64,000 nucleotides of DNA from Cinnamomum chago (taxonomy: Eukaryota > Streptophyta > Magnoliopsida > Laurales > Lauraceae): contig CP142452.1 in assembly GCA_038049695.1 (NCBI GenBank), positions 76,578,501 to 76,642,500 of the forward strand, read 5' to 3'. The notes under the pieces are model-generated. The model saw only the letters and a program-made list of their open reading frames with translations. It searched no databases and had not been told where the DNA came from. The translations under genes were made by a program, and so were the position numbers. This document shows, in pieces, positions 7,271-64,000 of the stretch (position 1 is its first letter; each line of letters starts with the position of its first letter).

Positions 7271-9983
7271 CCCATTTATTTTTCCTCATGTTATGTCATC
7301 ATTCTGTTGCATTACATGCAACACATTGAGGACGCTATCTAGTTTAGTTAGGGAGAAGGAACAAGCGCGCTTTTTTGTTAAAGTAATGGATGGAAAGAAG
7401 CACAGAAAACTTATAATAATTCAAACATCTTTACTCTTAGTATTCTTTGAAATCTAACCAACTTTTATGTTTCTACCAAAGAAATACAAGGTCGCACCTT
7501 CAGGATTCAATCATTAATTACTAAACCTTTCTGAATTTCGATTTTACTTATTTTTTAATATAAACCAAACCTCTTGGCTAAGGATTTGTTGGTGCAACGA
7601 GAGGATTTGGTGCACCATAGGATTATTTTCCACATGAGAGATTAATCTTCCATTTCCATATCTCACATAGGAGATTGAGATCCTCCCAGTCAAGAAAAAT
7701 GAGATCCTCCCTGGCAAGCAAAATCAATTCTTTTTGTTTCTTTTTCATAAGAAAACCATGTGGCATCAAACAACCGAATAGTGTGCAAGACAGAAAATTG
7801 ATACACTTTTCCTCTTTATTGTGGGATCCTCTTGTGACGCAAACGCACTTTCTAAGTTCATATTGCCATAGCGTGTTTCAAAGACATCTAAAACAAAACA
7901 AGCACCAATGACAGACATGCCGCTAATTTAGCCCGCTAGTGTCAGGTGTAACGAAACCCAAATATTTTGTGTCCAACAAAGAGAGAACACCCATATAAGG
8001 GTTACATACACTTGAACACCTTAAACAAACCAAACATTATGGTAAACTTTTAAATGGCTCCCAGCATGACACCGGAGGATTGATCCAAGAAAGGCATTTT
8101 TCACACGACAGTGGAACCTAAGGGTAGCAACAGATCGGGCTAGGTGGAGAACTATGGGTAACAATTTAGAGGTGGCAAAACGTGTTCCGACCCTAACCCG
8201 ACCTGTATATGACCTGCCTAACCCGGCCCTTATAAAATGCGGGTCGGCCACGTGTTAGGTTTTCCTAACACGCAGAAAAACGCGTCGGGTAAGGGCTGAC
8301 CCTCCCAACCCGTGTGACCCGTATATAATCTTTTATATTTATACTTATTTTCATAAATAATGATTAGAGATAATATAAATTATAGATTTTTTTTTCTTAG
8401 TGTGAATCCACGGCTTGTGAGACAGCTTAGGATCTTATGTTGATGTGACTTCTCCCTTCTCCACTCCTTTCTTTTTGAGCTTTTGCAAATGCCATAGATG
8501 AAGAAACAATGAAGAAGGAGCATGAAGAGTTTTCTTCGGTGCACAGAACATGAGGTCAAGTTTACACATGTTGGCCCTTTTCTAACCTTGCCGTCAAAAC
8601 ATTCCACAAATATAAATCTAAACTCACTCTCAGTGTATGGATTTAATTTTGATAAATTCCGAGGTAAAGGGTGGGAACGCCATGGTGGGGACCACGTATT
8701 GAGATCCAACAGTTTTTTTCAAGTACGTAGGACAATCCAAAAAAAATTCTCCATAAAAAATAGTCCTACTGTCGTATTAAAAAAACATGATAATGAATAT
8801 GCATATAAAACTTTTATTTTTATGCAAAGAATCAATCTAATGGTGGAAATAACCCAAATTGAGGTGAAACTTTGGAATATCCAATAAATAGTAAGGATGG
8901 GTGCTTTAATGATTGTAAATTTAAGAGGTGGAGTCTATCATGGTATTTCACTCCTTTTACACAACAATTTAAAGAAGTCAAGGCCATACACACCCAAAAA
9001 AAAAAAAAAACAGCTCCACCCTTTATCCCTCTGCAAGCGTATTGGAAAGTTTCCTCATCTTCTTTAGTTTCACACTGTTAGTGCGAGTTTGTCTTTTTTT
9101 AATAATATTACTTTTAAAAAAAATTATAATAACTAACGGTATCTATAGGGGCCAGTAGTCTAAAAATATAATTATTTTTATAAATACCTCCTAAATATAG
9201 CCTAAGTACTTAGTCAATATTCCAAAGTAGTTTTAATACTCAATGTTACTCATGATAAAAAGCAGTGGGAGCATAAATCCAATGAACGGGTACTTCCACC
9301 GTTAGGCAACAAGCAACCATGCCAACCTAAGAAAATCAAAGTCTTGGTGGAGGTTCGAAACCGCAAACGCAGGGTAATAACTTGCTCCAAATGTATAGAG
9401 CGGGGACACAACAGGGGTAGCTTCCGTAATCCACCAATACAACAATAAACGTGCATATTTTGTATGGAATTTTGTATATGATGGCAATTTTTTATTGAAT
9501 TGCTTGTTTTTTAATGTAGAAGGAATGAAAATCTTTTTATGGCATTGTGTATTCCCTTTTGTGTATGTTTATGGGAATGACAAATTTATATGGGATGGCA
9601 AAACATGTCCTGGTAGTGGTCATTGTGTATGGAACTGCTTTTTTATATGTATATGGAACGAAAGATTTGGCATGTCAAATGGAACAGTCAATATGGCAAT
9701 GGAATGTCAAATTTGTATGTGAGAGCATCCACATCGACCCTGGTTCCAGCATTGAGCAAGACAAAATATAAGAACCTGCGTCACAGTCGACCTTTGTGAA
9801 TTCTAACTAAGTTTGGCGTCGACCCTAGCCATATCTTACATTGTTAGTGACAGGGTCGACGTCAACTATTGTTCCAACATTCTGTGAAGACAAAATGTTA
9901 GAACTTGTGTCACAATCGACCTTGACACTTAGTTGTATATGACCAATGGTTGATGGCGACACAATGCCTAATTCATCCAATGT

Positions 9984-17054: not shown

Positions 17055-17531
17055 TCACCCTCCAATATTCGGCAACCCACTAATTAAGTACGGTGGAGCA
17101 GTTGGTGTTAGTGTCACCGGAGGCGGAGGCGGCGCCATCTCAGTCCGGCAAAGCGGGCAACTTGAGTGCGAATATAACCACATATCAATACAAGGAACAT
17201 GAAAAGAGTGCAAGCATTCAGGCAGCCTACGCACATCTTCCCCCTCCTTGAACTCGCAAAGGCATACCGCACACGTTTTCTCCGCTTCGCCGGGCTCTTT
17301 ACCATATTTGTATGCCGGGATCAGCTGTATGAAAGATCTCTCTTGGCCACTCAGTGTTCCTTCTTCCTGTGGCAAAAACTGAGGGCGTCGTGGCTGACTG
17401 AGGGCTTCGCGGTGCTTGCAACACCTCACAAGGATGCAGTGGTAGATCATGAGCATGACAGCGGCCGAGAGAACTCCGATGAGGGCAACGGAGAAGGTGG
17501 AGAAAGGGACTCCCGAGCTATCTCTCTCCAT
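17055..17531 (-). CDS. RING-H2 finger protein, ATL family (E3 ligase)
   Basis: Single-exon gene of 158 residues. A hydrophobic segment near the N-terminus (about residues 10-35, VALIGVLSAAVMLMIYHCIL) is the expected ATL membrane anchor. A basic stretch follows, then the RING-H2 domain at about 92-133: CAVC, ECLHSFHVPC, WLYSHSSCPLC. Spacing is C-x2-C-x15-C-x1-H-x2-H-x2-C-x10-C-x2-C, with the ATL hallmark tryptophan before C7 and proline after it. Before the RING, LIPAYKYGK takes the place of a clear GLD motif. From family knowledge it should be a membrane-anchored E3 ubiquitin ligase; substrates are unknown. I start at 17531 rather than at the in-frame ATG at 17672, because the longer start would lie upstream of a TATA box and would add an unusual N-terminus. 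Confidence 0.92.
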   Translation of the reverse strand: MERDSSGVPFSTFSVALIGVLSAAVMLMIYHCILVRCCKHREALSQPRRPQFLPQEEGTLSGQERSFIQLIPAYKYGKEPGEAEKTCAVCLCEFKEGEDVRRLPECLHSFHVPCIDMWLYSHSSCPLCRTEMAPPPPPVTLTPTAPPYLISGLPNIGG

Positions 17532-18760: not shown

Positions 18761-21700
18761 TTAATCAACCTCCTCAATCTTAGGCCCAGCACCACTTCCT
18801 CCTGGAGCAGGACCATCCTCATCCATATCTCCAGCCACATCAGCTCCCGCGCCCTGATACATCTTGGCAATGATAGGGTTGCAAATACCCTCAAGTTCCT
18901 TCATCTTGTCCTCAAACTCATCAGCCTCAGCCAACTGGTTACTGTCAAGCCATTGGATTGCTTGCTCAATGGCCTCCTCAATCTTCTTCTTGTCAGCAGC
19001 ATCCAACTTAGCACTGATCTTCTCATCCTTGATGGTGTTCCGCATGTTGTACGCATAGTTCTCCAAAGCATTCTTTGCCTCCACCTTCTTCTTGTGCTCT
19101 TCATCCTCCGACTTGTACTTTTCTGCTTCCTGCACCATCTTCTCAATCTCATCTTTGCTCAACCTGCCCTTGTCATTGGTGATGGTGATCTTATTCTTCT
19201 GCCCAGTGGTCTTATCCTCAGCAGAAACATTTAAGATGCCATTGGCATCAATGTCAAAGCAGACTGTGATTTGAGGGACGCCTCTTGGAGCAGGTGGGAT
19301 GCCTGAGAGCTCGAACTTGCCCAGCAGGTTGTTGTCTCTGGTTCTCGTCCTTTCTCCCTCATAAACCTGGATCAGGACACCAGGCTGGTTGTCCGAGTAG
19401 GTAGAAAATACCTGCTCCTTCTTGGTGGGGATTGTAGTGTTTCTAGGGATCAAGACAGTCATGACACCTCCTGCAGTCTCCAACCCAAGTGAAAGAGGAG
19501 TAACATCCAAGAGCAGCAAATCCTGCACCTTCTCGTTACCTTCACCACTCAAGATAGCAGCTTGAACAGCAGCACCATATGCAACAGCCTCATCAGGGTT
19601 GATGCTCTTGCAAAGCTCCTTCCCATTGAAAAAGTCCTGGAGCAACTGCTGGACCTTGGGAATCCTGGTAGAACCCCCAACAAGAACAACATCGTGGATG
19701 GTGCTTTTGTCCATCTTAGCATCCCTCAAGCACTTCTCAACAGGCTCCATACACTTCCTGAACAGATCCATGTTCAGCTCTTCAAATCTCGCACGTGTTA
19801 TGGTGGAGTAGAAATCAATACCCTCAAACAGAGAATCAATCTCAATTGTGGTCTGTGCTGTGGATGAGAGGGTCCTCTTTGCCCGCTCACACGATGTCCT
19901 CAGCCGTCTGAGAGCCCTCGGATTTCCACTGATATCCTTCTTGTTCTTTCTCTTGAACTCCTGGACGAAGTGGTTCACCATACGATTGTCAAAATCCTCT
20001 CCACCCAAATGAGTGTCTCCAGCTGTGGCCTTAACCTCAAAAATACCCTCCTCAATGGTAAGAAGGGAGACATCAAAGGTACCACCGCCAAGGTCAAAAA
20101 TTAGCACATTCTTCTCCCCAACACTGGTGGCCTTCTTGTCAAGCCCATAGGCAATGGCAGCAGCTGTGGGTTCATTGATTATACGCATCACATTCAATCC
20201 AGCAATAACACCAGCATCCTTTGTTGCTTGGCGTTGAGAATCATTGAAGTAAGCAGGAACAGTAACAACAGCATTTTTTACAGTGGAGCCAAGATAAGCC
20301 TCTGCAATTTCACGCATCTTTATGAGGACCATGGAAGAGATCTCTTCAGCAGCAAACTGCTTGTCCTCGCCCTTGTATTGGACAACAATCATTGGCTTGT
20401 CACCAGGACCGGGAATGAGCTTGAAAGGCCAGAGCTTGATGTCACTCTGGACAGAAGCATCACTAAATCTCCTACCAATCAATCTTTTCGCATCTGCAAT
20501 CAACACCCAAGAACAGAATTCCAGATGAGTTAGCATGTTATCAAACAATTTTATTTTTAATGATACAATGCATTAATGTAAAGCTTGACAGTATAAGAAA
20601 GGATTAATACAGTACACCGCAGACATACAAAACTGAAAATGGTATCAAACAAAACGATTGCATCAAAAAGAAAATTGTATAGGTTCTCAAAGAATATGGC
20701 ACACCTCAGACAAATGAATGATCTTACTGAAAAAATTGAACATGATATCAAACAAATTGAATACATGAAAAAGAAAATTACTGATGATCTGGACGAATAT
20801 GGCACACCTCATACAAAAGAATGGTCTTTCAGGCAACAGTACAGTTGTGGTCTATAACAACAAAAGGTTCCACAAGATCTGAGTTTTGAACTAAAATTCA
20901 ATTCCCTTGCGTTTAATATTTTGTTTATTTTTGGTAATATGCCCTAGTACCTTACTTGACACACCAAGGCACTAACAATATTTTTAGTTGATACTTTAGT
21001 TTGACAAAAATCAACGAAGGATTCATTTGCTCGTACTTTAGATTGGAGAATCCGCTTGAATAGAAAGGAAGATCTAGCATTGTCCACTTTTCTTAACCTT
21101 TTTTTAGGTATTCCAAATATACCACTGTCTAATTCTCTACAGGGAGAGAAGCAATCTGGTCAAATCTCGAAAATCTCTCTCTAAATTGGAGCAACCAAAA
21201 AGATAAGAAAGAGAAATCCCAGTGCACATGAAAGGTTTGACCAATAGTAAAAAGAAATCTATAATCTAGAAACTCAAGGTAACGTTTTACTAAAGAATAA
21301 TCTAGATTTTGAATGAAATCCACATCTAGCAGAAACATTCAATCTCAGTTCCCACTGTAGTAAGAATAGGCAAGATCTACACTGGAAATAAGCTCAAAAA
21401 AAAAAAAAAAGTAGATCACATAAACAAACAAAGATCAAAGCAAATCGGAGATATAACCATGATATGTATCTAAAAAACTAACGAAGAATAGATGAAAGTT
21501 AAAATTGTTTCGACACGAAATCAGATCGAAGACTGATTAAAATTTAAATCTGGATCTAATTAATGGAGAACACCTAAAATCACAAAAGCAAAGGATCGAA
21601 ACGGATAGAACTCAGTAAAGTTGCTCTGATTGGATTCAGAGCATAACATTTAACAGATCTGTAAGGAATACAAAAAAAAAACAAGCAAGATATATCGTCG

Positions 21701-29278: not shown

Positions 29279-32021
29279 TCAACGGGCCCCAGAGAGGACA
29301 GACTCCATAATCACAGATTGGTCTGGCTTGTTGAGATCAATAAAAGAAACATTGCCATGTTCCAGTTCTGAAATACATATGGTAAAACCATCAGGTGACA
29401 ATTCAGGAAGAGAAACATCACCATCTAGGAACTGCATGACTTGCCGCATGCTCGGCCTACACTTCGGTAAAGGGTGTGAGCAAAGCAAACCAAGCTTTAG
29501 CACCAACTCCATCTCTTCCAATGCATAACCATCTCCTAATTTTGCATCTGCCGAATCAAGAATCGTCCCTTTCCTCCAGCAGTCTAACACCCAATCCACC
29601 AATATCAATTCCTCTGGGGGAGCCCTCCCCTCTATTGGCCTCCTCCCACAAGCAACTTCAAGCATGAATACCCCAAATGCAAACACATCTGTACTTGTAG
29701 TCGCCTTGCCAGTTCTAGTGAGTTCCGGTGCAAGATAACCAAGAGTACCTGCTAATAGAAAAATTAATGCAACATGATAAAAACTTCCATGAAAAAGCTT
29801 TTAGTTAATTCTGACCGTGCTAAACAATTAGTTTTAGTTTTATTAGGTGGTGTGGTTTGGCAATTCTATCTTTTTGTCCATTAGCGTGTTAGAAAAAAGT
29901 TTATGTGAATGTTCGGCTGGATCACCTTTTTAACATCTTTGGGTTTGGCAAATTTTTTATTTAACTTTTTTTTCTTAATTAATTTACAAGTTTCGATATA
30001 TATCCTTTTTCTAAGCCAGTTTGACACTTTATTAGATTAGTAAAAATCAAATAAAACTTCCATTTTTCAAACAAAGGATTACATTAATAGCACTTTAATT
30101 CACAATGCCCCTATCTTTTTCAAAAAAAAAAAAAAAAGTAAAAAGGCAATATCCTTTCACCACTAAAAAAAAAAAAAAAAAAAACTCTACTTTTCTATAG
30201 AAAAATTAAAAATAATTTTATAATAATCAACTAAAAATAAAATACTATCATAACCCCATTAAATTTTATTCTGTTTTAATTTGATGCTTTCCTACACTTT
30301 ATTTTACATGTAAAATTACCAAGAAGGGTATGCCAACCCATATAATTTTTACTAAATGTAAATTATATTTTTATTTAAATAAAAATCATATGTATCAAAC
30401 CGTCTATTTGTTCTAGCGTCCATGCGAAATAGCTATAATCCAAAATTTTGATTCCTCAAAATCTTTTACCTGCAACGCGGGTCGTTTGAAGGTCGGTTCC
30501 ATGTTGATGCAGTCGCGCAAGACCAAAATCTCCCAATCTTCCTTGCAACTCACTGTCCAACATGACATTACTGGACTTAATATCTCTGTGGAGAACAACT
30601 TGCTCCCATTCTTCATGCAAATACACTAGTCCTGAAGCGACACCTTTGATTATTCTAAATCTTCTACCCCAGTTCAGAGATGACTTTGGTTGGTCAAAGA
30701 TGAACTTGTCAAGACTGCCTTTGGGCATGAGATTATACACTAACAGGAGCTCTCCTTTGTGTCGGCAATAACCACGGAGAGGTACCAAATTCCGGTGCCG
30801 GAGCCTGCCCAGGCTAACTATCTCGGCAATGAACTCCTTTATCCCTTGGCGCGATTCATGGGATATTCTCTTCACAGCCACTTTGGTTTTCGAGTTTGGT
30901 AGGATGCCTTTGTACACCCTACCAAAACCGCCACGCCCAAGAAGCTGTTTGTCTGTGAAGCCATTGGTGGCTTCGTTTAGGTCCTCGTATGCAATCCTGT
31001 GAGTCCCATATTCAAGCTCCCAGTCTTCCACTCCTTGTGCAGAAATCAATCTCTTTAAGTTGACGAAAATGGTGACAGAGACGGAAACTAACACACAGAC
31101 CAGTGCAAGTACAGGGACCCCAACTTTCTCCGCATCTTTTGATTTATTTTTAGATTCTTGTTTCCATGGAAGGGTAGGAAGACTTGAAGTATTAAGTTCT
31201 TGTGCTTTTCCTACCATGCAAAAGCTCCATCCCAAGACGCAGTGAGATGCTGTAAGTATCCCAGTAGATGCAGCGAAACCCACATACATGTCGTCAAGGA
31301 TGATAGGAGAAAGATCAATATGCAAAGACAGGAGAGGAAGGTGGGGTTTACTCACGTTGATGGGAAACAATGTTACATTAAGTTGTTTTGCAAGTCCATC
31401 ATATTCGATCGAAATCTGCATCGGATCACCGCTTCTAAGGCTCAAGTTCTTGAACCCACCATTTTCATCAGAAAAATAAGCTGCAGGAGCGGATTTGATA
31501 GACTTCAATCCATTGATATCAACTCCGACGTGGTTATCATCGATATCTTCAAATTCAAGGTTCAGTATGATGTCTAGTTCAATGGCGACTATATGATTGG
31601 ATGGAAGTCCATTAGTAGTATTACTGAAGAGGCCCAGATATTGAGAGGGTAGTGCTCCGATGAGATTATTCGAAGGAGAGATGACGAAGGCCATTCCGTG
31701 GCCGCCCATGGTAGGATACTGTGGGTGAATTGCGAAGATGAAATTAGTCGAGAAAGAGAAAACATCACCGTTTGTGGTGTTCTTGAACCGAAGAGGAGCC
31801 GGGTAGAAATGATGGCGGGCCTGGAATCTGGTCTTATCTGCATCGGTATGTGTTGTGATCTCTGTCCCTGTAGTATCTGCATCGGTGAGTATGTTAAGGC
31901 CGTCGACTGTGATTTCGGCTGTGCCATTTGTACTGATGAAGGCGTTGGTGATGGAGTTGCCAGACGGAGAGGCTAAGAGCTGCTTGACAAAGAGAAGAAA
32001 TACCACGAACTTTGGAAACAT
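29279..32021 (-). CDS. L-type lectin-domain receptor kinase (LecRK), copy 1
   Basis: Two exons, 30470-32021 and 29279-29748, with a 721-bp GT-AG intron splitting the Gly codon of VAG|TLGYLAPE. The product is 673 residues. In order: signal peptide (1-18), legume-lectin ectodomain (about 22-275) with the metal-site motif ELDIILNLEFEDIDDNHVGVDIN, one transmembrane helix (about 301-321), then a kinase. Kinase motifs are GRGGFGRV (362-369), VAVKR with Lys384, HRDIKSSN (478-485), DFG (498-500) and APE (524-526), so it is complete and of RD type. From family knowledge such plasma-membrane receptors sense extracellular nucleotides, cell-wall state or pathogens; the ligand here is unknown. ELDI replaces the usual ELDT at the metal site. 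Most LecRK genes lack introns, so the kinase intron is notable and is shared with the paralogue at 47818. Confidence 0.93.
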
Positions 32022-34883
32022 AGCTTCTTGTGCCTATTTCAGTATTGATTGCGCATAGTGAAGCACCCTCTTCCTCGTTAAATACATGTTGGGTATGGTG
32101 GGGCCGACCTTTTTGGAAATCCAAGCCCATCAGCCCTCACACCCTGTGCGGTGAGCAATGTATAAATTATTTGTACAATATGTATGATAGCCACGTTGGG
32201 TTCACAAAACATGTGATAAATTTTTTTCTTCTCTAGCTATTTGGTATAGAAATGAAGGGAGTTCCTTATTTGTGATTAATCCAATGGTTATTTAATTAAG
32301 GAACTATGAAGATTTAGTCGCCTCTCTTTACTAGAATTCTAAGAATTCATGTATGGGGGAATATTAAATTCTCCCAAAGTTGTTCCCTCAGCTGAAATTC
32401 TCAATCCCTCGTCTTGATGGATAATTTGAGATTCTAACCAAATACATAAATAGCCGAATTCCAAAAATCTCAAAAGGTCATATGAGGCCTTTTGGGTGGT
32501 TTGGATATGAAATTCTGATTAAAATAACGTAGCATTTCAAATGTTTTAAAACAAGATGTGATATTATGTAAAAAAAATCTAAAATAATAAAAATATTTTG
32601 AAATTCTAATAAAGAAGCAGGCATGGACACTCCTAATATAATGGGCTTGGATTTTGAAAAGATAAATGAGAATTCCTAACATGTATTTTTGTGGTTCGTC
32701 CCTTTTTCCTTTCTTTCATCGTATCACTTCACTTGACTTGACTATAGTGGGGTAATTTAATGCAATGTGCGTCTTTCATTTTCCCCAGTACCTTTCTCTT
32801 GACTCAAAGAGTCTTTCATTTAGTGGGAATGCGGTGCCAACAAGGCGTTGGATAATCCTGCACCGTGTTTGGTGGAGTGAAGAAAATTGAGGATCCTAGT
32901 CATTTTCCTCCCTTTGTTGTCGGGGAGCCCGGCTTCCCATCTACTCACGTGGTCACTCTATAGTCATTTTCTTCACCTTCATCAAAGAGTCTAGTGTGGC
33001 CTATCCAATCAGAAATCTAAATTCATATCTACCTCTTTTATGGATGGGCCCACCAAAAAATTAATACTTAAAATCTCATAAAATCCAAATATTATATTTT
33101 GTGCTACTTCATTAAATTATAAAATAGATATGATTATCTCTGTTAATCTTGAATCAGGGCTCGTTTATAAAATCTAAATCCGTAAAAATAAGTCTTTCAT
33201 AGGTGAATCATTTGGTGGGAGGCCAAGATTTTTTTTATTTAAAAAAAAAAAAAAGAGTTTGCGCCACCCTGAAAATAATTAAAATATAAAACATAAAAGT
33301 TTACCCATTTATTCTTGTATATTTTAGTCATATATATGAATAATAATGATCAATTTAATGATGGATTTTACTCTGATTAAACTAAAATTTAAACTACAAG
33401 TTACATATAGGAGATGACAAGCGGTTAAGATTTCTTAAATTGGCCCCGCTGATAATCACAATAAAAAAAAAAAGGACACTTCGATAAAAGACGAAGAGAG
33501 GTCTGTTATAAATTATCTCAAGTTATATCGAATTAGTACATCAAACTTGAACTGTGAATCAAATGAATTGAAAATGAAATTGTGTAAGCCAATTCCATCT
33601 ATTTTGTGAATTAAGGTAAGCTTCCAACTGCGAACTATGAATTTAAATGTGAATCATACGAATTGCAAATTAGGTAATTATGGTCTATAAACCACGTGTA
33701 TATCTCATCCAAATATGCCAAAAAAGATTATTATGTGATCAATAATTTGTCAGGAAATCAGCTCCATTGATTCACATTTGGTCCGAGTTTAATGGAGGGC
33801 AAGCGAGTTTAATGGAGGGCAAGCAATGGAGATTTGTTTCTCTTCTCACTGTTTTCAGAACCAGGAAAAAGACCCAAAAAGGACAATTATCGTGTGGACC
33901 GGGTTGCTGGGAAGTCTCACATCGCCTAAATAATAAGCTTGACATGTCTTAATATGTCTGTATGAGCTTCCACCTATCAGCTTAAGCTTTTGGTTGTCGG
34001 TTTAAACTCTATAATATATTGACACCCAACTTGGGCTTGGTTTAGGGCAATGGTCGTACATGAATTCAAAATAAAGATCTGATCCAAAACCAAGATCCAA
34101 TTCAAGACCCAAACGCATATATACCATAGAGCAAAAGTCTTCATAAATCATAATATAAAATACATGACAACGGCCATGATATCGATTATCGAATGTTCAG
34201 GACCTCATGGTATCAAGCCATCGATTTGAAAACCCCCGTGTTTGATGGGTTGGTAAAACATGATCTAGAATTTATTCTATTATAATGGTTTATTTGTAAT
34301 TTGTCAGTTTAATCTGAACCATCCAGATCCTCCTAACAGTGTTTGTGTGAGAGCAACTCCAGAGAGAAAGAGTGGAAGAAGAATCGGTCATCTGTGTCCT
34401 TCATTTTCTTCACGTCTGATGCAGCTTTATTTCATTTTAAGGAAATACATTTTCCAAAGCCAGAGTAGTATTTCTATTATTGCAAAAAAAAAGAAAAAAA
34501 AAAAAAAAAGAAAAAAAAAGGTGGCTTACTAGTCCTAAAGGTAAACAAAAGGGTCCAATTCCACGCAAATAAATTGGCCTATTTGACAGTGATTTCTCAT
34601 GCAGCTAATTCCATGCAAACAAACGAGCCTATTTGGTAATGCTCATTTAAATGCATATAAAAAGGGTGAAAATATAATGTGGCAATCTCTGTGTAACATT
34701 CTGGCAGTCAAAGCGATCATGGATGATGAATATATATATTTTGTGTATGTAATTCGTTTGATTAGGATATGAGATGTGAGAATTTCAACGTAAAAAAAGG
34801 GTTATTTACACACCAAAATTTTCACATGTGAATCAAATACATATGTGATTGAGTGTAAACAGATGTACACATGCATAAGTGTT
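32022..34883. other. Intergenic upstream of LecRK copy 1
   Basis: No gene. The first few hundred bases are the presumed promoter; I see no strong TATA box. A 20-bp direct duplication (GAGTTTAATGGAGGGCAAGC) occurs near 33786 and 33806. About 33830-34135 resembles the region upstream of HSP70. A-rich tract at about 34484-34520. Confidence 0.45.
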
Positions 34884-47817: not shown

Positions 47818-50315
47818 TCACCGGCCTCCAGAGAGGGCAGACTCCATAATCAAAGAATGATCTGCCTTGATGTCTCCATCAGAACCTTTGCCATGTTCCA
47901 GTTCTGAAACACTAAGAGTAAATCCATCTGGTGAGAATTTTGGAAGAGGAACATCACCATCCAAAAACTGCATTACTAGCCGCATGCTTGGCCTACACTT
48001 CGATAAAGGGTGTGAGCAAAGCAACCCAAGCTTCAGCACCAACTCCATCTCTTCCAATGGATAGCCATCTACTAACTTTGCATCTGCTGAATCAAGAATC
48101 ACCCCTTTCCTCCAGCAATCTAACACCCAATCCACCAAAAGCAATTCCTGTGTGGGAGCCCTCCACTCTACCGGCCTCCTCCCACAAGCAACTTCAAGCA
48201 TGAATATCCCAAATGCAAACACATCAGTACTTGTAGTCGCCTTTCCAGTTCTCGCAAGCTCAGGTGCAAGATAACCCAGAGTGCCTGCTAATAGATGCAG
48301 CATCATAAAAAGCTCCATGCCAAAAGTGTGAATAGATTTATAACTGCCTGTTTCAGTGTTGTAATGACTAGACAAATAGAATGGCATGAGTTTCAGTCTA
48401 TTTAATTTGATACTATATTATGTGAATCTCTGAATGAATCATTGAATCACCTTTAAGACCTTTTGCCTCCAAAAAAATTCTCCTTTTCTTTTTGACCTTT
48501 TTGCGTAAGTTTGCTCATGACATTTTACTAATATGTCAAGTTTCTGTTTGCCTCTTTTTAGAGGAATCAGACATACCGAACAATTTATTTGTAATAGGGT
48601 CTAAATGAAATAGCTAATCTAAAATATAAACAAGCACTTAGTTGTGGTAAGCGCTAATTAAAGAGTTCATTTCAGTTTGATTCTTTTGTAAACAGATGTA
48701 ACTTGTACCAGAATAATTACAAACTCTGCCGCCTCTGTTCTCTTGTTTTTGAGAGTTAGAGCTTCTTAAAAAAACTAAAAAAAAACATTTGGATTTCTCA
48801 AAATTGTTTACCTGCAACGTGGGTTGTTTGAAGGTCGGTTCCATGTTGATGCAATCGCGCAAGACCGAAATCTCCCAATCTTCCTTGCAATTCAGCATCC
48901 AACAAGACATTACTGGCCTTAATATCTCTGTGAAGAACAACTTGCTCCCATTCTTCATGCAAATACACTAGTCCTGAAGCAACTCCTTTGATTATTCTAA
49001 ATCTCTGGCCCCAATTTAGAGATGACTTTGGTTGGTCATAAATAAACTTGTCAAGACTGCCTCTGGGCATGAGATCATACACTAACAGGAGCTCTCCCTT
49101 ATACCGGCAATAACCACGGAGAGGTACCAAATTCCGGTGCCGGAGCCGACCCAGGCTAACCACTTCAGCGATGAACTCCCTCATCCCTTGGTGAGATTCA
49201 TGGGAGATTCTCTTCACAGCCACTGGAGTTTTTGTGATGGGTAGGATGCCTCTGTACACCCTACCAAAACCTCCACTCCCAAGAAGCTGTTTGTCTGTGA
49301 AGCCACCGGTGGCTACGGTTAGGTCCTCGTATGCAATCCTGTGAGGTCCATACTCAAGCTCCCAATCTTCGACTTCTTGGGCAGACCTCAATTTCTTTCT
49401 CAAGATGAAAATGGTGCAAGAGATGCCAAGTAACACACAGACTGTTGCAATTAAAGGCAACCCAATTGTCTCCAAACGCTTTGGCATCTTTTTAGATTTT
49501 TCTTTCCATGGAAGGGCTGGAAGACGAGAGGTATCGAGCGCTTGTGCTTCTCCTCCTATGCTAAAGCTCCATCCCAGAACGTAATGAGATGATGCATGAG
49601 CCGCAGTACACGAAGAGAAACCCACATACATGTCATCTAAGAAGGTAGAAGAAAGATCAATAGCTGAAGACAAGAGTGGAACTCGGGGTTTTTGCTTGTT
49701 GATAGGAAACAGTGTCACATTAAGTTGTTTCGCAACACCATCATACTCAATTGAAATCTGCATCGGGTCACTGCTTAGAAGGCTCATGTTATTGAACCCT
49801 CCATTTTCATCAGAAAAATAAGCTGCAGGAGCCGATTCGATAGACTTCAATCCATTGATATCAATCCCTACATGGTTACTATCGATATCTTCAAATTCAG
49901 GCTGCAAGAGGGTGTCCAATTCAACAGCAAAAATATGGTTCGATGGAAGTCCTATCTCACTATTGTTGAAGAGGCCAAAATATTGAAAAGGTAGAGATCC
50001 ACTGAGCTTGTTCGAAGGACAGATGACGAAGGCCATTCCATGACCCCCATAGGAAGCATACTGAGGGTGAGTTGCGTAGATAAAATTAGTGGAGAAAGAG
50101 GAAACATTACCATTTGTAGAGTTCTTGAACCGAAGAGGAGCAAAGTAGAAAACATGACCGCTCTCTGTTACTGTACCGTTGATGGCTCTAAAAGAGCCGT
50201 CAGGTGTGATTTCTGCTGTGCCTTCGACACTGATGAGTCCGTTGGTGGTGAAGTTACCCAACTGCGAAGATGCAAGCTTGACAAAGAGGAGGAGTAGAAC
50301 AAACCTGGGAAACAT
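47818..50315 (-). CDS. L-type lectin-domain receptor kinase (LecRK), copy 2
   Basis: Two exons, 48812-50315 and 47818-48284, joined across a 527-bp GT-AG intron at exactly the codon used by the paralogue at 29279. The product is 656 residues: signal peptide (1-18), legume-lectin domain (about 22-258) with VELDTLLQPEFEDIDSNHVGID (131-152), transmembrane helix (about 284-304), then a kinase with GSGGFGRV (346-353), Lys368, HRDIKASN (462-469), DFG (482-484) and a YLAPE motif encoded at the start of exon 2. All catalytic residues are present. The metal site keeps ELDT but has Gln where Asn usually coordinates calcium. The ectodomain differs from copy 1 by a shorter loop near residues 42-52; kinase parts are closer. 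Both copies look functional, so they are diverging tandem paralogues. Ligand unknown. Confidence 0.93.
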
Positions 50316-53300
50316 AGCTCATAGTCTTGCAATTGCAGGAATTGGATTGCACCCTGCATTTAGTGAAGGAAGGGGATTGCTAGCCAACTGCCATGGGCTA
50401 TAAAATTAAATAAAAAAAGTCCAACCCATTGTGCTAGTTTTCTAGTAAGGAAATATATTAATAACCAAGTAAGAAAGAGCCTCTAACTCTTATTTGAATT
50501 TCTTTTCAACGAAGCACATGCCAAATGATGTTGCTTATCATAATTTGACACTTCACCTGGTCCAAGCTGCAAGGGACCCACCTCAGCAATTATTTAAATC
50601 ACCCACTTTTAGGTGACTTTTCTGGGTTTTCACATGGGAGTCTAATGAATCCACTATCTTTATACAAGCAGTTCCTTGCACCGACGTTAATCTTAATTTT
50701 ACACAGTTGAATACATTAGTCTCTATTGTATTTTATCATAATAATTTTAATAAATTTCTATTATATATATATATATATATATTAAAATCTGATTGTCTAT
50801 TCGGCTGGTTTTCTAAAAACAAAAGGAGGGGGCTAGTGAAGCCGCTTTTTATGAGGAAAAATTAAAAAATAAGCTGATTTTTTCTCGATGATACAGGAAA
50901 AAACTTTTCCTATAGGGGAAGGTCAAGAAAAAAAATTCACACAAAAGAGGGGAAAGTCCGTAGAATTGGTTTTCCATGTAGTAAACAAAGGTGCTCTGAA
51001 ACTAACAATGACTTGGGATATTTGATTGCTTAATTCACTTTCAAGACTTTTTCACTTTGTAGGATCTTACACTCTATTGGGATACCATTTATCTCAAAAT
51101 CATTTAGAGATAGGAAATAACACAACAATAGTTTTATGGTGAGGGTGAGGGCGAGGGTTCGACTATGATTATAACCGTTAAAAAATGAGGGTGGACATTG
51201 ACCTCAACACACTCCTTTGTGTTATACATAAAAATTGCCCCCAGGCACCCACCTTGATTTGCTGGAGATATACAGCAATATACAAATGAGAACAGAGGTG
51301 ACCATCGCCGACACTCAATATAGCCAGACAAGTCAATTTACGAACCCAGTCAAAGTCGTAAAGATGAAGTTGTATCTTATTCTTATTCAAATATGCCAAA
51401 ACGTCATCAATAATTTGTGAGAAGTTTCATGCCGTTGATCTTCATTTGATCCACACGTGTCTTTATCTTCATTCTCATGAGTGAGACCCAAAGTCATGAA
51501 CGATGAGCTCAGTATAAAATTTTTTTGGATGAACATGGACTGACCACGTGCAGGCATAGCTTGAGTCAAAGTTTGTGGATGCTCATATTTGGTTTTCTGA
51601 GTACTAGGGAGGGGGAATGGTAGGATAAGATTTTGGAGTAGCTCCCAAATGCATTCCCACTGGTGGCTGGACTAACATGTTTTTGTTGCTACTCTTATAG
51701 TTGCTTTGTTTTGTCTTTTAATGAAATTGACTTTGTGTGAGGATGCGTTTGATTTGAGTCTACAGTGTATGATATAAAAGGGCCCTAAGATCCCGATTTA
51801 GCAACTAGGTCCGTATGTTTGGATCCTTATAAATAAGTACACAAAATGTAGACTGGTCACACGGAGGAGCCCTATTTGGGCTGCTAAACCAGCCCTTTAA
51901 TGTTGTGACCCAGCCTGGCTAGTCCACAAAGCAATAGCTTTTATTCTTGTCCTAAAGCCCAAAGGTAAGGCCGGTATGGCCCAATTTTGAAAAGCCCGCA
52001 GCCTTGAGAGCTGAGCTAATGCTTGACCTAGCCTACCCGGCCCGGCCCCGCCCGGCCAACTGTTAATATATATTTCTTAGAATGCATTTGCCATTGGTGA
52101 TTAGTCCAACTTTAATTAAAAACACTAAACTATTAGAATTAGAAAAGGTCAATACATCTCAAATTTATAATTTATTTATGACCATGGTGTTACCATTATT
52201 TCACGACCTATAAGGATGAATATAAAATAGATAGTAATGTTGATTATTAAAGATTTTGAGACAGTCTTTCAAGAATTGGTGGACCAAGTGGAACCCTGTT
52301 ATGTTAGGGGATGTTTTATACACTGACGATGCATTGTGACATCCTCGCACTTTAGCTTTGCACGAAAATTCCGTGGACAAGCTTCCATTATCCAGGTACT
52401 AGATGACCTCGTGCCCCATTTCTATTTGCAAGTGCAAGCAACTCCTGCCTCCAAGTCCCAAGTCACCTTCTATAAGTGCAGCATCTTGGTTGTTTTGTGC
52501 ACTAGCACAAGAACCTGCATGTACAAGGGGAAGTGCTCATGATGGCCTTTGACCACATAACATCAACGACAGCAATAGCTACACGATGTGAAATTGGGTT
52601 GTCAATGTGAGCTTTCTTTTATTCTGGCCGTGGCCCTTGAGGGTACGTGGGGGAGGCTATTAGGGGCACGAAGAGCTTTCGCTTGAACCAGGACTGCCTC
52701 ACATATATGAAGGTATGATAAGGGCTTACTCGGCATATAGCTAGGTGTGAGAACATGAGTTCAAGTGTAATAAGACCCCTGCAACTAAGTCACGACTGGC
52801 TAGCACAATAACCTACACAAAGAAAGAGCATGTCTACCGCACAACCAAAATGGTTATTTAAATATTGAAAGACCTCATAGTAAAATCGTAAATGAAGGAC
52901 AACTGCACAATAAATACATTAAACTAACCGGACCTAGGTCCATGGGATAGAACCAAAGTGGATATGTAACCAAGGTGGAACCCGACCAGACAAAAAAAGG
53001 AATCGGACTTGGACCCATTTACTTATTGGGGACTAAATAAGGAGCCAAATCCAGTTTTTACCGGGTCGGAACTTTCGGGTAATCGGAGAATCGGTGACCT
53101 ATTTACATGGCGTACTCTCCCCTCAACACTCTCCCATTTTTACTTTTTTTTTTTTTTAAGCGTCCCAACACCTCCCGGGCTACATTAGCTCCATCTCTCC
53201 AAAGTCCCAACCACTCTAGCTGGCCACATATCCCAAATCCAACGACCCCAAGCCATGGACTACTGATTGGATGGTAGCCATATGGTGAGATCCAAGCCCT

Positions 53301-54173: not shown

Positions 54174-54422
54174 TTGAATGAAGTGATTGAAAGCCCAAAG
54201 CCTGGCCTGACTTTGCCCAAGGTGAAATCGAATCTCCACGAGAATCCTCATCTCGAATCCCTCGATGCCGGAGATCTCATCAACAGAGCCGAAGGCTTCT
54301 TGTATACCATTGCGGATTCATCTGCTTCCTCTTCTGTAATTGGTGCAGCAGCTGACACGACGGCACAGAAGAATGGAGGGTGGTTCGGGTTTGTATCCAA
54401 TGCGATGGTGTTCATCTTGAAG
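54174..54422 (+). pseudogene. Orphan ALBINO3-like (YidC/Oxa1) exon
   Basis: The reading frame encodes LDAGDLINRAEGFLYTIAD, then NGGWFGFVSNAMVFILK, resembling the mature N-terminus of ALB3, the thylakoid insertase, just before its first membrane span. It ends AAG|GTAACT, a good donor in phase 0. No ATG precedes it: an in-frame TAG lies just upstream, no plastid transit peptide is encoded, and sequence upstream of about 54150 is a repeat. I could not find the membrane-span exons (VHVPYSYGFAI-like) downstream. I read it as an exon fragment left by duplication or transposition. It could be a true internal exon of a gene whose first exon lies to the left, but nothing in the window supports that. 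Confidence 0.6.
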
Positions 54423-56340: not shown

Positions 56341-56479
56341 TTATAACACATCTACTTCATAAGAAGTCTGAACCGGTGAAAGGTACCTTTTTTATGTAAT
56401 GAAAACTTATGGTTCTCGAATGTTGTAGTTCTCCTGCTGTATCTTTAACCATCTTTCTGACAAATTCGGCGCACAACAG

Positions 56480-56600
56480 GTTTAGTCACCTAAGAGAAGA
56501 AGTGAACATGAGAAATTAAACAAATTGCTGCCAGCAGAAGAGGTTCAGGCGCCCACATCCTGACTCTGACAATGTCTCCAATGACGCGGCAACAGATCAG
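56480..56600 (+). pseudogene. Possible degraded exon following ALB3-like fragment
   Basis: After ACAACAG the sequence encodes SPKRRSEHEKLNKLLPAEE and, after a one-base shift, DSDNVSNDAATDQ, ending CAG|GTTGGC. The charged, acidic composition would suit the stromal tail of an ALB3-type protein, but I cannot confirm homology and the frameshift breaks it. Low confidence. Confidence 0.3.
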
Positions 56601-58383
56601 GTTGGCCATTGCCTATGTTCTGTCATCTCATCTGAATCTCTATGGTTTGGCATTACAGTTTTTCCTATAATATTCATGTTCATGATATATTCTTGCTTCT
56701 CATGGTTCCCTAAAGTCCATTAATCAACCCAAGGAACATATGGTGTCTTTATGTTTTGAATATGTGCTAGTGGGGCCTAGATTCTGTGATCTAGATCACT
56801 AATCAGACATCTTGCACTACATGTAACAGGTAATCAAAAGCTATGATGCCCAGATATGGCATGGATATGGAAGAGACGGGGGTTTTACACATAAGAAGTG
56901 AAGTATTCGATACACATGATGTGTTGCCTACTTTGAAGTATCTGGGTATCATAGGAATCTTTGTGGGGCAAACCTAAATGGATAACACTTCAGTCTTGAA
57001 TTACAGCAGCAATTCACATTCAAACAGATAAAAACCAATTATTCGATGTCTTGGAATTCTTATCAGGATACTTTCTAGGCATGCTCCATCCATTGTAAGC
57101 AATATCAGAACAATGATCTGGATCATTGAACTATGTTCAAACTCAATGCTCAAGGGTAACAATGCATATCCTCAACTTAGGATCATGCAGTCATCGACTC
57201 TGAGTTTCATAATGAAGAATTAGAGATGCAAACTTCATTATACTAGAAACTCAGTGAATGTGGTCAAGATACTGATCTCCTGTGAGGCTGTGATTCCATA
57301 GTTTCGTGATTCATCTGGAGCTAAGTGCCTCATTTGCGTGACAAGTCCTAAAGATATAGAACGAGTTTATTGTTCCTTCTTTTCTGAACTGATCAAAATT
57401 AACTAACATCAATAGCAGGAACAAGAAGCCCTCGACTGCTATATGCTTCAAGTAATATAAAACAGATTCCAGATTATACTGGACAGAGGATGGTCAAGCA
57501 GTCAGAGGAATTGTTCAGCATGATAATGTCATGTATATCCATTGAGGTTTTACCTTTGGTTAGTCATGGACTCATGTATATCTCAGCAAAATGTATCCAA
57601 GAAATTTTGTTGTCCAGTTTTGTATTGGGGTAATTTGAAATAACATTTCTGTTTTTGCTGCCAATCATAAGTGTATAAAAAATTATTATGATGTAATTAG
57701 GTTTCCTATTATGATCATGACTAAGTTTCCTATTTTAAGTTAATATCTTTTATTTTACTTTATAAACAGCCACTAGCTATTCACAATAATACATATTAAA
57801 GAATTTTGTCAAGATGTTGTCTTTAAGTTTTCATTACTGAGATTTTGGGAACTATTGTGGTGAGTCTATTATCAAGCTGTTTATTGAAACTTAATCTTTA
57901 TGCACTGCCCTGATGGTGAATGTACACAATGATCAACTCTATGATTTTGGTGGTATAGATAAATTCATGATCTCATTCTTTGGGTAATGAAAGCTAGGTT
58001 GACTCTTCATTCCTTGTAAACCTTGATTGCTCTTAATTCTCAAGGCCCTATTCACATTTTCATATATCCTTTGTGCAAACTCTCGCATGTTGTCAAAACA
58101 ATGTCCCAATGTAAACCTCTAAGCATCTCCTGACCAAGGATGTTAGTGTCAACAATGTGAATTGTGCTACTGGACAGTGTACTTAAGTTCCAGAATTGTG
58201 GTGCAAGAATTAAGCTTCAGAGGGCTACACTAGTCTCGGTCTTGCTTGAACTGATGACTCAATGATATAAAAGAAAGTGTTCATACAAGAGAAGAGAAGA
58301 TACTACATAGTGCGTCATGTGGGACCCTCAGCATTTTGTATTCAGCATTTGTATAATTCTTACAATCATATTACCTTCCTTAA
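56601..58383. other. Intergenic, nothing recognised
   Basis: About 1.8 kb of moderately AT-rich sequence without a convincing ORF, known repeat or splice-linked coding segment. Confidence 0.45.
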
Positions 58384-60905: not shown

Positions 60906-61785
60906 GTTGCTATCTCAGAATTCATGTTTGGTTGTGAAGGTTTGCGCTGGCTGTCAACCTAGCTTACACAATCCTCCTTTATCTTGGCTTGGGACTGGCT
61001 GTAAAATTTTGCGAAGTTAACACACACACACATATTACTGTTTGCGAGATTGCAGTGTTCGATTTTGTTTAATCCTTTGTTATGTACATTAGATATTATT
61101 TCTGACTGCATGTTTATTGCATTAAAGAAATAAAAAAACCTTAATCATATCTCCTTTAGATGCAAGTTCTGTCTGGATAAAAAGGTTCCATTCTTCTCTG
61201 GGTTTTCTTCTTTGTTCATGAGATTGCACTATTTCCTTTTAATGCACATGTTATATGCATTAGATTGACTTTGACTGCAATGCAAGCACCGATGCCCACG
61301 ATCATATGTTCTCACAACATGTGTGTCAAACAATTCTATTGACAGATGAAACTTAGAGGAGGCTTTTGGGTATGAAGGCAGAATGTTGTAAGTAATCTAT
61401 TTTCTACCAAATGCTGCTGAGCTGAAAATTAATATGCAGAGGAAATCAATGCTAATCTCAAAAGCATTTTGCCCTTTACATTTGGATGTGCAACACTTTG
61501 AAAATATTTAGTCACTACCCCTCTATTAGTGCAGTTGATGTATTAAGACAGGAGAAAATTACTGCCGCAGACCCAGGATGCATCAAATGTCTGTATCCAT
61601 AATTCTACTTAACAAATTCCCTTGTGCAAGCAAGCTAGATGCATTACTACAATACAATAAATAGATTTTACAAGCCTACAGCTAGTATACCAAACCATCA
61701 AAAATATCAACTACTCATGCATTTCCACCATTCTACTCATACAAGAAAAACTTTGCATCTGCCTGCCCGTGAACCATCATCCAAC
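60906..61785. other. Intergenic, CLE 3' flank
   Basis: No gene or repeat recognised apart from a short CA tract near 61022. The right end probably contains the CLE 3' UTR. Confidence 0.45.
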
Positions 61786-62343
61786 CTATGGCTTAACTGG
61801 TGGGTGGTGATTTCCAATTGGACTGGGTCCTGATGGAACTTTACGCACTTTGTTAGCTTCAATCTCATGCTTTATTTTCTGCTTCAGAAACATGAGAGAA
61901 GTAAGATTTCCATTTTGGTGATGAAAAGGAATGGATGATTTAGATGCAAAATATTTAGTCCGTGTATGTACTCACCCATGTTGACAATTCTTGAGGTGCT
62001 ACTGCTTGAGATTCGAGTCCTTTGATTCCAAGCTCAAGATTGTCTGTTGATAGAAAGTGAGAAGTAGGTGCCATTAGAAGCTGAGCTTAGAGATCCAAGT
62101 ATAGATGTTCACCTGTTTCATTCGATTTCTTCTCTAAGAAATGCTTCAAATTTCAGTAGTGTTTTTGTTTGGCAACCAAAAGTGAAAGTATAGTAGTAGT
62201 ACTGGCTGCCAACCTGATTCCCTGGCTTGAACCATGATACTGATGAAGTTATGGTAATGGGCAGTGGCTGAAAGGAGGAGGAATGTGAGGAAGAGATGAG
62301 TTATGATTTGCTTTCTTTCCATCCTCTGCATGAGCTTACTCAT
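61786..62343 (-). CDS. CLE-family signalling peptide precursor, three exons
   Basis: Assembled by hand. Exon 1 is 62214-62343, exon 2 is 61976-62043, exon 3 is 61786-61878; introns are 168 and 97 bp with GT-AG ends. The product is 96 residues. The N-terminus (1-28) is a signal peptide with core IITHLFLTFLLLSATA. A variable middle follows, then a CLE motif RKVPSGPSPIGN at 78-89 and a short HHPPVKP tail. Conserved Arg1, Pro4, Gly6, Pro9 and Asn12 of the CLE dodecapeptide are present; position 11 is Gly instead of His. From family knowledge the secreted, processed peptide would be perceived by CLV1/BAM/PXY-type LRR receptor kinases. Two introns recall CLV3/CLE40-type genes; the PSGPxPxGNxxPP pattern suggests a CLE46-like member, but I cannot settle orthology. 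The ATG at 62343 is chosen because a TATA box lies about 145 bp upstream. Exon 3 has a tandem acceptor (GAAG|CAG|), so a 97-residue form is possible. Confidence 0.82.
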
Positions 62344-62482
62344 TGTTGAAGTGATTAGAGAAAAGAGTGGTTGCCTTTTCAAGCAGGAAAAAAGGTCTTC
62401 ATTAAGTCATGAAGTGGGAAAATCTCAGCCTTAGTAACTGACAAGGATTGTGTTTACTAGGGTGAGGAATCTGGAATCCTAT

Positions 62483-62493
62483 GCATATATAAG
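62483..62493 (-). promoter_or_regulatory. Putative TATA box of CLE gene
   Basis: The minus strand reads CTTATATATGC about 145 bp upstream of the proposed start codon. Confidence 0.45.
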
Positions 62494-62494
62494 T

Positions 62495-64000
62495 TGAAAT
62501 TTTTTGATCAAGTTAGAATGTTAGTGATGTCCAGTCATTGTAGGTTGACTTCTACTTGGCCATCATTGAGAGCATATTTAAAGTCTATCCGCTTCTGTCT
62601 CTTGCATGCAATTTTGCTCGTGAGTACCCGGGCCATTGTTCCCAACAGGCACATATCATCCTACCTGCCGACTGTGGACCCCTCTAATACTCTGTAATGC
62701 CATGTCAACACATCGATTAAAGTGCAGTGGAGAATAATTCAGCGGCTGACCCAGGAAATTTTCTTTGAAGGTGTTAAAAACAATTTCTGTGGGGCAACCT
62801 TGAAAAGATATGAGATGTAGGTGTTTGTTGGTATAAAGCGTGGATTTGCTCCCCATATCATGTGATCAATATTATATTTTTTGTGAGGTCATGTGTGTGC
62901 ACTAAGGGATTAATCACGTCCGGTCAAATACTACATGATACTGTGAATCTAATTGGTTTTTTTTCCCCTTCTTTTCTCCTGTTAGAGGTCTTAAACTCAT
63001 TTGTACTCCAAATCTTCTTTGAAAGATCACTGACATTTTACGAAAAGATGTGGACATTCAATGAAAAGTATTATTTAAAAAAAAATGTGGTTGTCCATTA
63101 CAAAAATTTATTTTAATTAACTAAAACTTATGGAGTTCAAAATTCTAGATTCTTTACATTAGTTCTTAACTTTTTTAGATATATGATAATATTCTAATAG
63201 AAACATTTAAACGATTTGGCTGTCGGAGCGATTTGGTTTGACTGGGGCTAGTCAACTCAACTTTTTGCGGTAGTCCATTTGCTCATCAGCCCTATTTTCA
63301 AAGATATGCTAGGACCCGTGATATTGTGACTTGACTTGACTGTTACCGGATCTTGTTTTTGAGATGGGACAGTATGGGATGGGCCTTGCAGTGGATGATG
63401 ATTGGAAAATATGCAAGTTTCTGCTTTCCTTCATTCCACTCTTGGATCCAATTTGGGGGTGCTGGCCTTATAATTTAATGATGGATCTTCACTTGGGTCT
63501 TTATAAGACAGATTCATGCCATCAGCAACCATTGGCCTAAATCCAGGCCCCAACCAGCCCTATCCTTCCACTTCTTGCTGTGCTCTCTAGATGCCTATTG
63601 GTTGAACACTTTAAAAGGTCATTTAAGAAGGGGGATATTTAGAACGGCTCCTCACCGGAGCGATAAGGCTTGACGATTTTCAACTGGCTGTTTAGGGTTT
63701 TAACTATAGGTACGTTATTTCTTTTTTTTCACTTGAGTAGGCTGTTTTTCTGTACATGCATGGGCTCGGGCTCTCATTAGGCCCAATTGCCTTGGGCGGA
63801 TTACTAAAAAAAACAAGAAAGATGGGGTATATCATATCAATCACCCAGTCGCTCATCAACCAATGCTCAGGAGTAAGTTATCTGGTGTGTTTGTGATGTG
63901 GCAGGTGAAAGCTTTCGGCGTTGGGCAATAACTGGCCAGTTGAGTGTGGGGCCCTCTCTAATATTTCGATGCCATGATTGGTGTAGCTGTTGATTCATCT
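62495..64000. other. Intergenic to window end
   Basis: Presumed CLE upstream region, then AT-rich sequence. ORFs 62656-62856 and 62862-63116 are not recognisable. Nothing else supported. Confidence 0.4.

Follow-up and report, generated by a model that had tools for sequence, protein, structure and literature searches.

CLE46 of Arabidopsis and its relatives are the closest described systems to a minus-strand gene at positions 61786..62343 of a 64,000-nucleotide stretch of the Cinnamomum chago genome (Lauraceae; assembly GCA_038049695.1, contig CP142452.1, positions 76,578,501 to 76,642,500), hereafter the window. The motif of Arabidopsis CLE46 is HKHPSGPNPTGN, and a Marchantia relative has the motif HKNPAGPNPIGN (PMC7552357). 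Among the 50 poplar CLE motifs in Table 1 of PMC4776436, three have a Gly-Asn end (PtCLE5, PtCLE26 and PtCLE34); PtCLE5 and PtCLE26 were termed putative CLE46 orthologues there. CLE46 has been classed with TDIF by its motif (PMC6612224, PMC8496505). AtCLE46 and soybean GmCLE13 did not cluster with TDIF, with no synteny reported with TDIF genes or with each other (PMC4526924). GmCLE13 was described as a putative CLE46 orthologue, none being reported in Medicago and Lotus (PMC5570945); it is the sole gene of its group (Group III, the TDIF group) with a predicted intron, and also has a C-terminal extension (PMC4526924). Most CLE genes are intronless in tomato and Brassica (PMC9670457, PMC9632860); six CLE genes with two introns are given for poplar (PMC4776436). 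The previously identified CLV3 and CLE40 orthologues all have two introns as well (PMC5570945), so that intron number alone does not separate the types. As judged from its sequence, the window gene probably encodes a functional CLE prepropeptide of the little-studied Gly11-Asn12 (CLE46) type; it has two introns, and it belongs to a pair of copies that most likely stem from a segmental or whole-genome duplication. The find is sound, but the gene is an ordinary member of a known family, apart from one unusual residue.

The first-pass annotation of the window had proposed three exons with phases 1 and then 0, joined to a 96-residue precursor that no single open reading frame reveals. This model was supported, and its coordinates, GT...AG introns and coding sequence (CDS) of 291 nt were all reproduced. 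The exons at 62343-62214, 62043-61976 and 61878-61786 splice to the precursor MSKLMQRMERKQIITHLFLTFLLLSATAHYHNFISIMVQARESDNLELGIKGLESQAVAPQELSTWKIKHEIEANKVRKVPSGPSPIGNHHPPVKP, of which the C-terminal end is RKVPSGPSPIGN-HHPPVKP. The coding part of exon 1 (130 nt; ATG at 62343-62341) encodes a likely signal peptide, MSKLMQRMERKQIITHLFLTFLLLSATA, and the start of the variable region; an in-frame stop lies 5' of this ATG, with no Met between them. Exon 2 (68 nt) continues the variable region with DNLELGIKGLESQAVAPQELSTW. Exon 3 (93 nt with the stop at 61788-61786) encodes KIKHEIEANKV, the CLE dodecapeptide RKVPSGPSPIGN and the tail HHPPVKP. Intron 1 (62044..62213; 170 nt, phase 1) has the weak donor CAG/GTTGGC and an acceptor ending in CTATCAACAG; intron 2 (61879..61975; 97 nt, phase 0) has the donor TGG/GTGAGT and a tandem acceptor (gaAGcAG) at 61882 or 61879. 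Use of 61882 adds one Gln, which gives a 97-residue form. An alternative donor for intron 1 at 62240 keeps the phase; however, it was rejected for its score (16.6th percentile) and for the loss of residues conserved in the duplicate described below.

The assembly (1.06 Gb, 14 contigs) was searched for further copies. The gene region had one other match, at C11:45183124-45183824, with 70% identity over query bases 10-694 of 701. This C11 duplicate has the same three exons with the same splice places, and gives the precursor MHKHMHRMERKQVIAHLLLTCLLAASAQYHNFSTIMVQAKESDNLELRNKLLESQSVGTQVLASWEKTRQEVEAKKIRKVPSGPNPIGNHHPPSRP with the dodecapeptide RKVPSGPNPIGN; its splice model uses one of four readable acceptors, picked by alignment, and further in-frame Met codons upstream make its start less certain. 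Since the second copy keeps the exons, the splice positions and the peptide, the observation in the window is, at the level of sequence, confirmed as real and not a chance assembly. Both copies carry the C-terminal 12-residue motif with Gly6, Pro7, Pro9 and Asn/His12 that is a trait of the CLE family. The two are also alike in having their hydrophobic peak from residue 13 onwards and an Ala-x-Ala site ahead of residue 29. A 21-residue query recovered both copies at E up to 10, just two candidates having been proposed in the first pass. Two CLE-like protein patterns each had a single match in the six-frame translation of the window and none in 60 first-order Markov simulations. At the DNA level, the pattern P-[S/T-like]-G-P-x-P-x-G-N (Pro4 to Asn12) had two matches in the whole genome, which are the two copies; about 0.2 chance matches are expected at 38% G+C by hand arithmetic, and the pattern was run without a positive control and requires Pro4, so that forms such as PtCLE26 escape it. 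The reversed control of the Pro4/Gly11-Asn12 DNA pattern had no match in the same 1.06 Gb.

Comparison of the two copies showed 81.1% identity in exon 1 with one 3-nt gap (the sole exon gap), 76.5% in exon 2 without a gap, and 78.1% over 96 nt of exon 3 (from 61881), again without a gap. Intron 1 has 58.2% identity with gaps of 7, 2, 1 and 4 nt; intron 2 has 75.3% over the aligned bases with gaps of 7, 14 and 13 nt, and the 200-base flanks on both sides have 72.8 and 70.1%. Intron 2 and the flanks are thus nearly as identical per base as exon 2, and it is the gaps that make the exon contrast. Over 96 codons of the 97-residue form, dS was 0.557 and dN 0.188 (dN/dS 0.34), a pairwise ratio that cannot tell which copy is constrained. 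The differences at codon positions 1, 2 and 3 number 17, 16 and 29, and within the dodecapeptide codons four are synonymous and one nonsynonymous. When the same changes were placed randomly in 5000 trials, a mean of 41.0 residues differed, as against the 32 of 96 observed (P 0.0024); a stop arose in 91.9% of the trials, and the actual duplicate has none. These substitution patterns show constraint on the pair as a whole.

The homology of the pair extends about 290 bases 5' of the start; 3' of the stop it reaches 240 bases, in two pieces. Moreover, 6 of the 33 blastn matches between the two regions form a collinear chain, their order and orientation agreeing between the contigs; among the other 27, several resemble dispersed repeats and a few may be members of the block. 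The chain lies at 17131-17503, 54217-54270, 56474-56584, 57355-57568, 61547-61692 and 61707-62629 in the window, and at positions 7430 to 41033 of the 80 kb starting at C11:45143001. The first of these matches is a RING-H2 gene, whose own counterpart on C11 was its best non-self match among the 150 scored of 312 candidates. The collinear block and this best match suggest that the pair most likely arose by segmental or whole-genome duplication.

The two dodecapeptides were ranked by BLOSUM62 against 52 reference motifs (PMC7552357, PMC4776436). The nearest motif to the window peptide was PtCLE34 (HKAPSGPSPIGN; 10 of 12 residues identical), and that to the C11 peptide was PtCLE5 (9 of 12). The type was assigned by the Gly11-Asn12 end, which the window gene has, and not by overall likeness. 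The two introns and the 7-residue tail also agree with a CLE46 type that has an intron and a C-terminal extension, as in GmCLE13. Compared with Arabidopsis CLE46 (AT5G59305), the window peptide shares Lys2, Pro4-Ser5-Gly6-Pro7, Pro9 and Gly11-Asn12; whereas it has Arg1 for His1, Val3 for His3, Ser8 for Asn8 and Ile10 for Thr10. The C-terminal tail of Arabidopsis CLE46 also contains HPP. It had been proposed in the first-pass annotation that Gly11 and the HPP tail set the gene apart from CLV3 and TDIF. This holds for those two types; however, Gly11-Asn12 is the known mark of CLE46, and therefore Gly11 places the gene rather than sets it apart. CLE46 had been named there only as a search target, and the difference of Arg1 for His1 went unmentioned. 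The three poplar motifs with the Gly-Asn end (PtCLE34, here as IHKAPSGPSPIGN, PtCLE5 and PtCLE26) differ from the window gene by His1 in all three and by Ala3 or Ser3 (PMC4776436). For Arabidopsis CLE46, alternative splicing has been suggested to give transcripts that include or lack the CLE motif (PMC7552357).

Several observations weigh against a working gene of the CLE46 type. Residue 1 is Arg in both copies, whereas it is His in all five of the Gly-Asn reference motifs; the gene is therefore named CLE46-like rather than CLE46. The ranking is also close: PtCLE24 (RKVPNGPDPIHN) shares 9 of 12 residues with the window peptide, which leaves a small margin, and several motifs of other types than CLE46, among them TDIF, match the C11 peptide at 9 of 12 positions. 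The signal peptide, although likely, was predicted from hydrophobicity and the Ala-x-Ala site. A Pfam scan of the precursor (E up to 10) matched no family. A sequence search of the PDB also had no match, which is uninformative, since chains of fewer than 20 residues fall outside that search. CLE46 orthology is itself unsettled in legumes: in a three-species whole-precursor tree, AtCLE46 clusters, at >50% support, with legume CLE1, which has a predicted intron and a length of 83 to 96 residues, in addition to the reported lack of synteny between AtCLE46 and GmCLE13 (PMC4526924). These legume results slightly lowered our confidence in the reading as a whole. The last point is the weak donor of intron 1, which scored 3.3 in the window copy against 8.1 for CAG/GTAAGT in the duplicate, by a simple weight table based on Arabidopsis.

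This donor is also the main ground for considering the window copy a decaying duplicate, of which most transcripts would retain intron 1 and stop before the CLE motif, while the C11 copy works. Read-through into intron 1 indeed reaches a stop. However, this donor still ranks higher than 98.4% of the GT sites across the window; the reading frame is uninterrupted, and the two copies taken together are constrained, though the pairwise ratio is blind to which copy. Decay of the window copy is thus unlikely, and a working CLE46-like gene is preferred.

CLV3 and CLE40 have Arg1, as has the window gene, and His11, whereas the residue here is Gly11. An orthologue of these stem-cell ligands would also explain the two introns (PMC5570945), and a C-terminal extension is reported for CLV3 orthologues (PMC4526924). 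Position 11 is the main obstacle: outside the TDIF-like (Ser11) and Gly11 types, 40 of 41 poplar motifs have His11 (PMC4776436), and the nearest poplar motif is PtCLE34. Orthology of the window gene to CLV3 or CLE40 is therefore highly improbable. Less likely still is that it encodes a TDIF-type ligand that controls the vascular cambium through TDR/PXY. The window peptide agrees with TDIF (CLE41/CLE44) at Val3, PSGP, Ile10 and Asn12, of which Val3 and Ile10 are unlike Arabidopsis CLE46, and the motif-based class of CLE46 is TDIF-like (PMC8496505). TDIF nevertheless has His1, Glu2 and Ser11, against Arg1 and Gly11 here, and no intron is predicted for the soybean TDIF genes, GmCLE13 being the exception in Group III (PMC4526924). 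In the TDR-TDIF structures, main-chain carbonyls of TDR make contacts with His1 that an Arg cannot reproduce (PMC4979064). TDIF with Arg1 bound 3.2-fold more weakly, and CLE46 was reported to have no measurable TDR binding (PMC5383425). We consider a TDIF-type ligand very improbable. Three unrelated open frames joined by chance might be suspected because CLE genes are short and easily imagined and no Pfam family matched, but the genome-wide pattern count and the conserved duplicate, which in our view already refutes it, leave this idea almost no weight.

The data show how the gene is built, that the duplicate conserves this structure and that the pair is constrained; the processing and perception of the CLE46-like product can be outlined from established CLE biology. 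The precursor would enter the secretory pathway, with removal of the signal peptide near Ala28. The dodecapeptide RKVPSGPSPIGN would then be excised, Pro4 and Pro7 hydroxylated and the HHPPVKP tail removed. The mature peptide would act on a neighbouring cell through a leucine-rich-repeat receptor kinase. By analogy with the TDR-TDIF structures, this receptor is likely CLV1/BAM-like rather than TDR/PXY, given Arg1 and Asn12 on the one hand and the replacement of His1 on the other; the receptors of Asn12 peptides include BAM1/2/3 and SKM1 (PMC4979064). The receptor of CLE46 itself is listed as unknown in a 2025 review (PMC12554668). If the gene behaves like CLE46, its likely setting is the shoot apex together with xylem or fibre that is differentiating. 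Activity of the CLE46 promoter is reported for the shoot apex and is wound-induced in leaves, and CLE46 restrains root regeneration (Ito et al. 2025, via PMC12554668). CLE46 reporters were also described in differentiating root fibres (PMC12014502) and in stem pith (PMC8136906), and expression of PtCLE5 and PtCLE26 is known from the cambium and xylem (PMC4776436).

Because both copies carry Arg1, this residue is probably older than the duplication. It is conceivable, though we regard it as doubtful, that the pair represents a hybrid: a CLE46-type ligand that has carried the Arg1 of CLV1/BAM-class peptides since before the duplication and has moved to another receptor class. This idea was made somewhat less likely by the grouping of AtCLE46 with legume CLE1 (PMC4526924), which may carry Arg1. 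A text search of the literature found neither the window nor the C11 dodecapeptide in main texts, figures and supplements being outside its reach, and the C-terminal tail strings had no match. Among the full motif strings, only the Arabidopsis motif was matched, in two forms and in one paper; shorter strings were matched in PMC4776436 and PMC7552357, and GPSPIGN occurred once, in a tomato IDA paper (PMC12903503). The Arg1 form may already be on record in figures or supplements. With two natural CLE46-type peptides that carry Arg1, it could be tested directly whether the receptor class depends on residue 1. The case also indicates that one genome can suffice to confirm a peptide-hormone gene of several exons, through a duplicate.

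Other observations concern the surroundings of the two copies. Within the duplicated block on C11, an open frame of 1410 residues (C11:45166586-45170815, minus strand) resembles a Ty1/copia polyprotein by eye; the window has no frame of at least 130 residues between the matching anchors 54217 and 56584. Near the C11 copy, two similar adjoining frames (about C11:45193649-45199633, plus strand) look thaumatin-like by eye, and the 40 kb of C2 beyond the window showed no evident frame of this kind of at least 110 residues.

The neighbours of the gene in the window are a SAUR-type gene, the RING-H2 gene, an HSP70 gene and two L-type lectin receptor kinases. On the Arabidopsis locus numbering, AT5G59305 (CLE46) is presumably close to AT5G59260. 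The former is given as the CLE46 locus (PMC7552357, PMC8136906) and the latter as L-type lectin receptor kinase II.1 (PMC13353682; also PMC10079790). A lectin kinase neighbour, which belongs to a large family, lends weak support to a gene order common to the window and the Arabidopsis CLE46 locus. A literature text search matched no paper naming two of At5g59260, At5g59270 and At5g59305 together, and no lectin receptor kinase was evident by eye among the frames of at least 110 residues in the 80 kb around the C11 copy. Members of the L-type lectin receptor kinase family are mostly intronless. Both of the window genes (29279-32033 and 47818-50318, minus strand) are split before GTLGYLAPEL in the kinase domain, which suggests a shared intron. 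The HSP70 frame (18761-20572, minus strand; 603 residues) begins its match at position 62 of the Pfam model, and the gene therefore likely has an upstream first exon.
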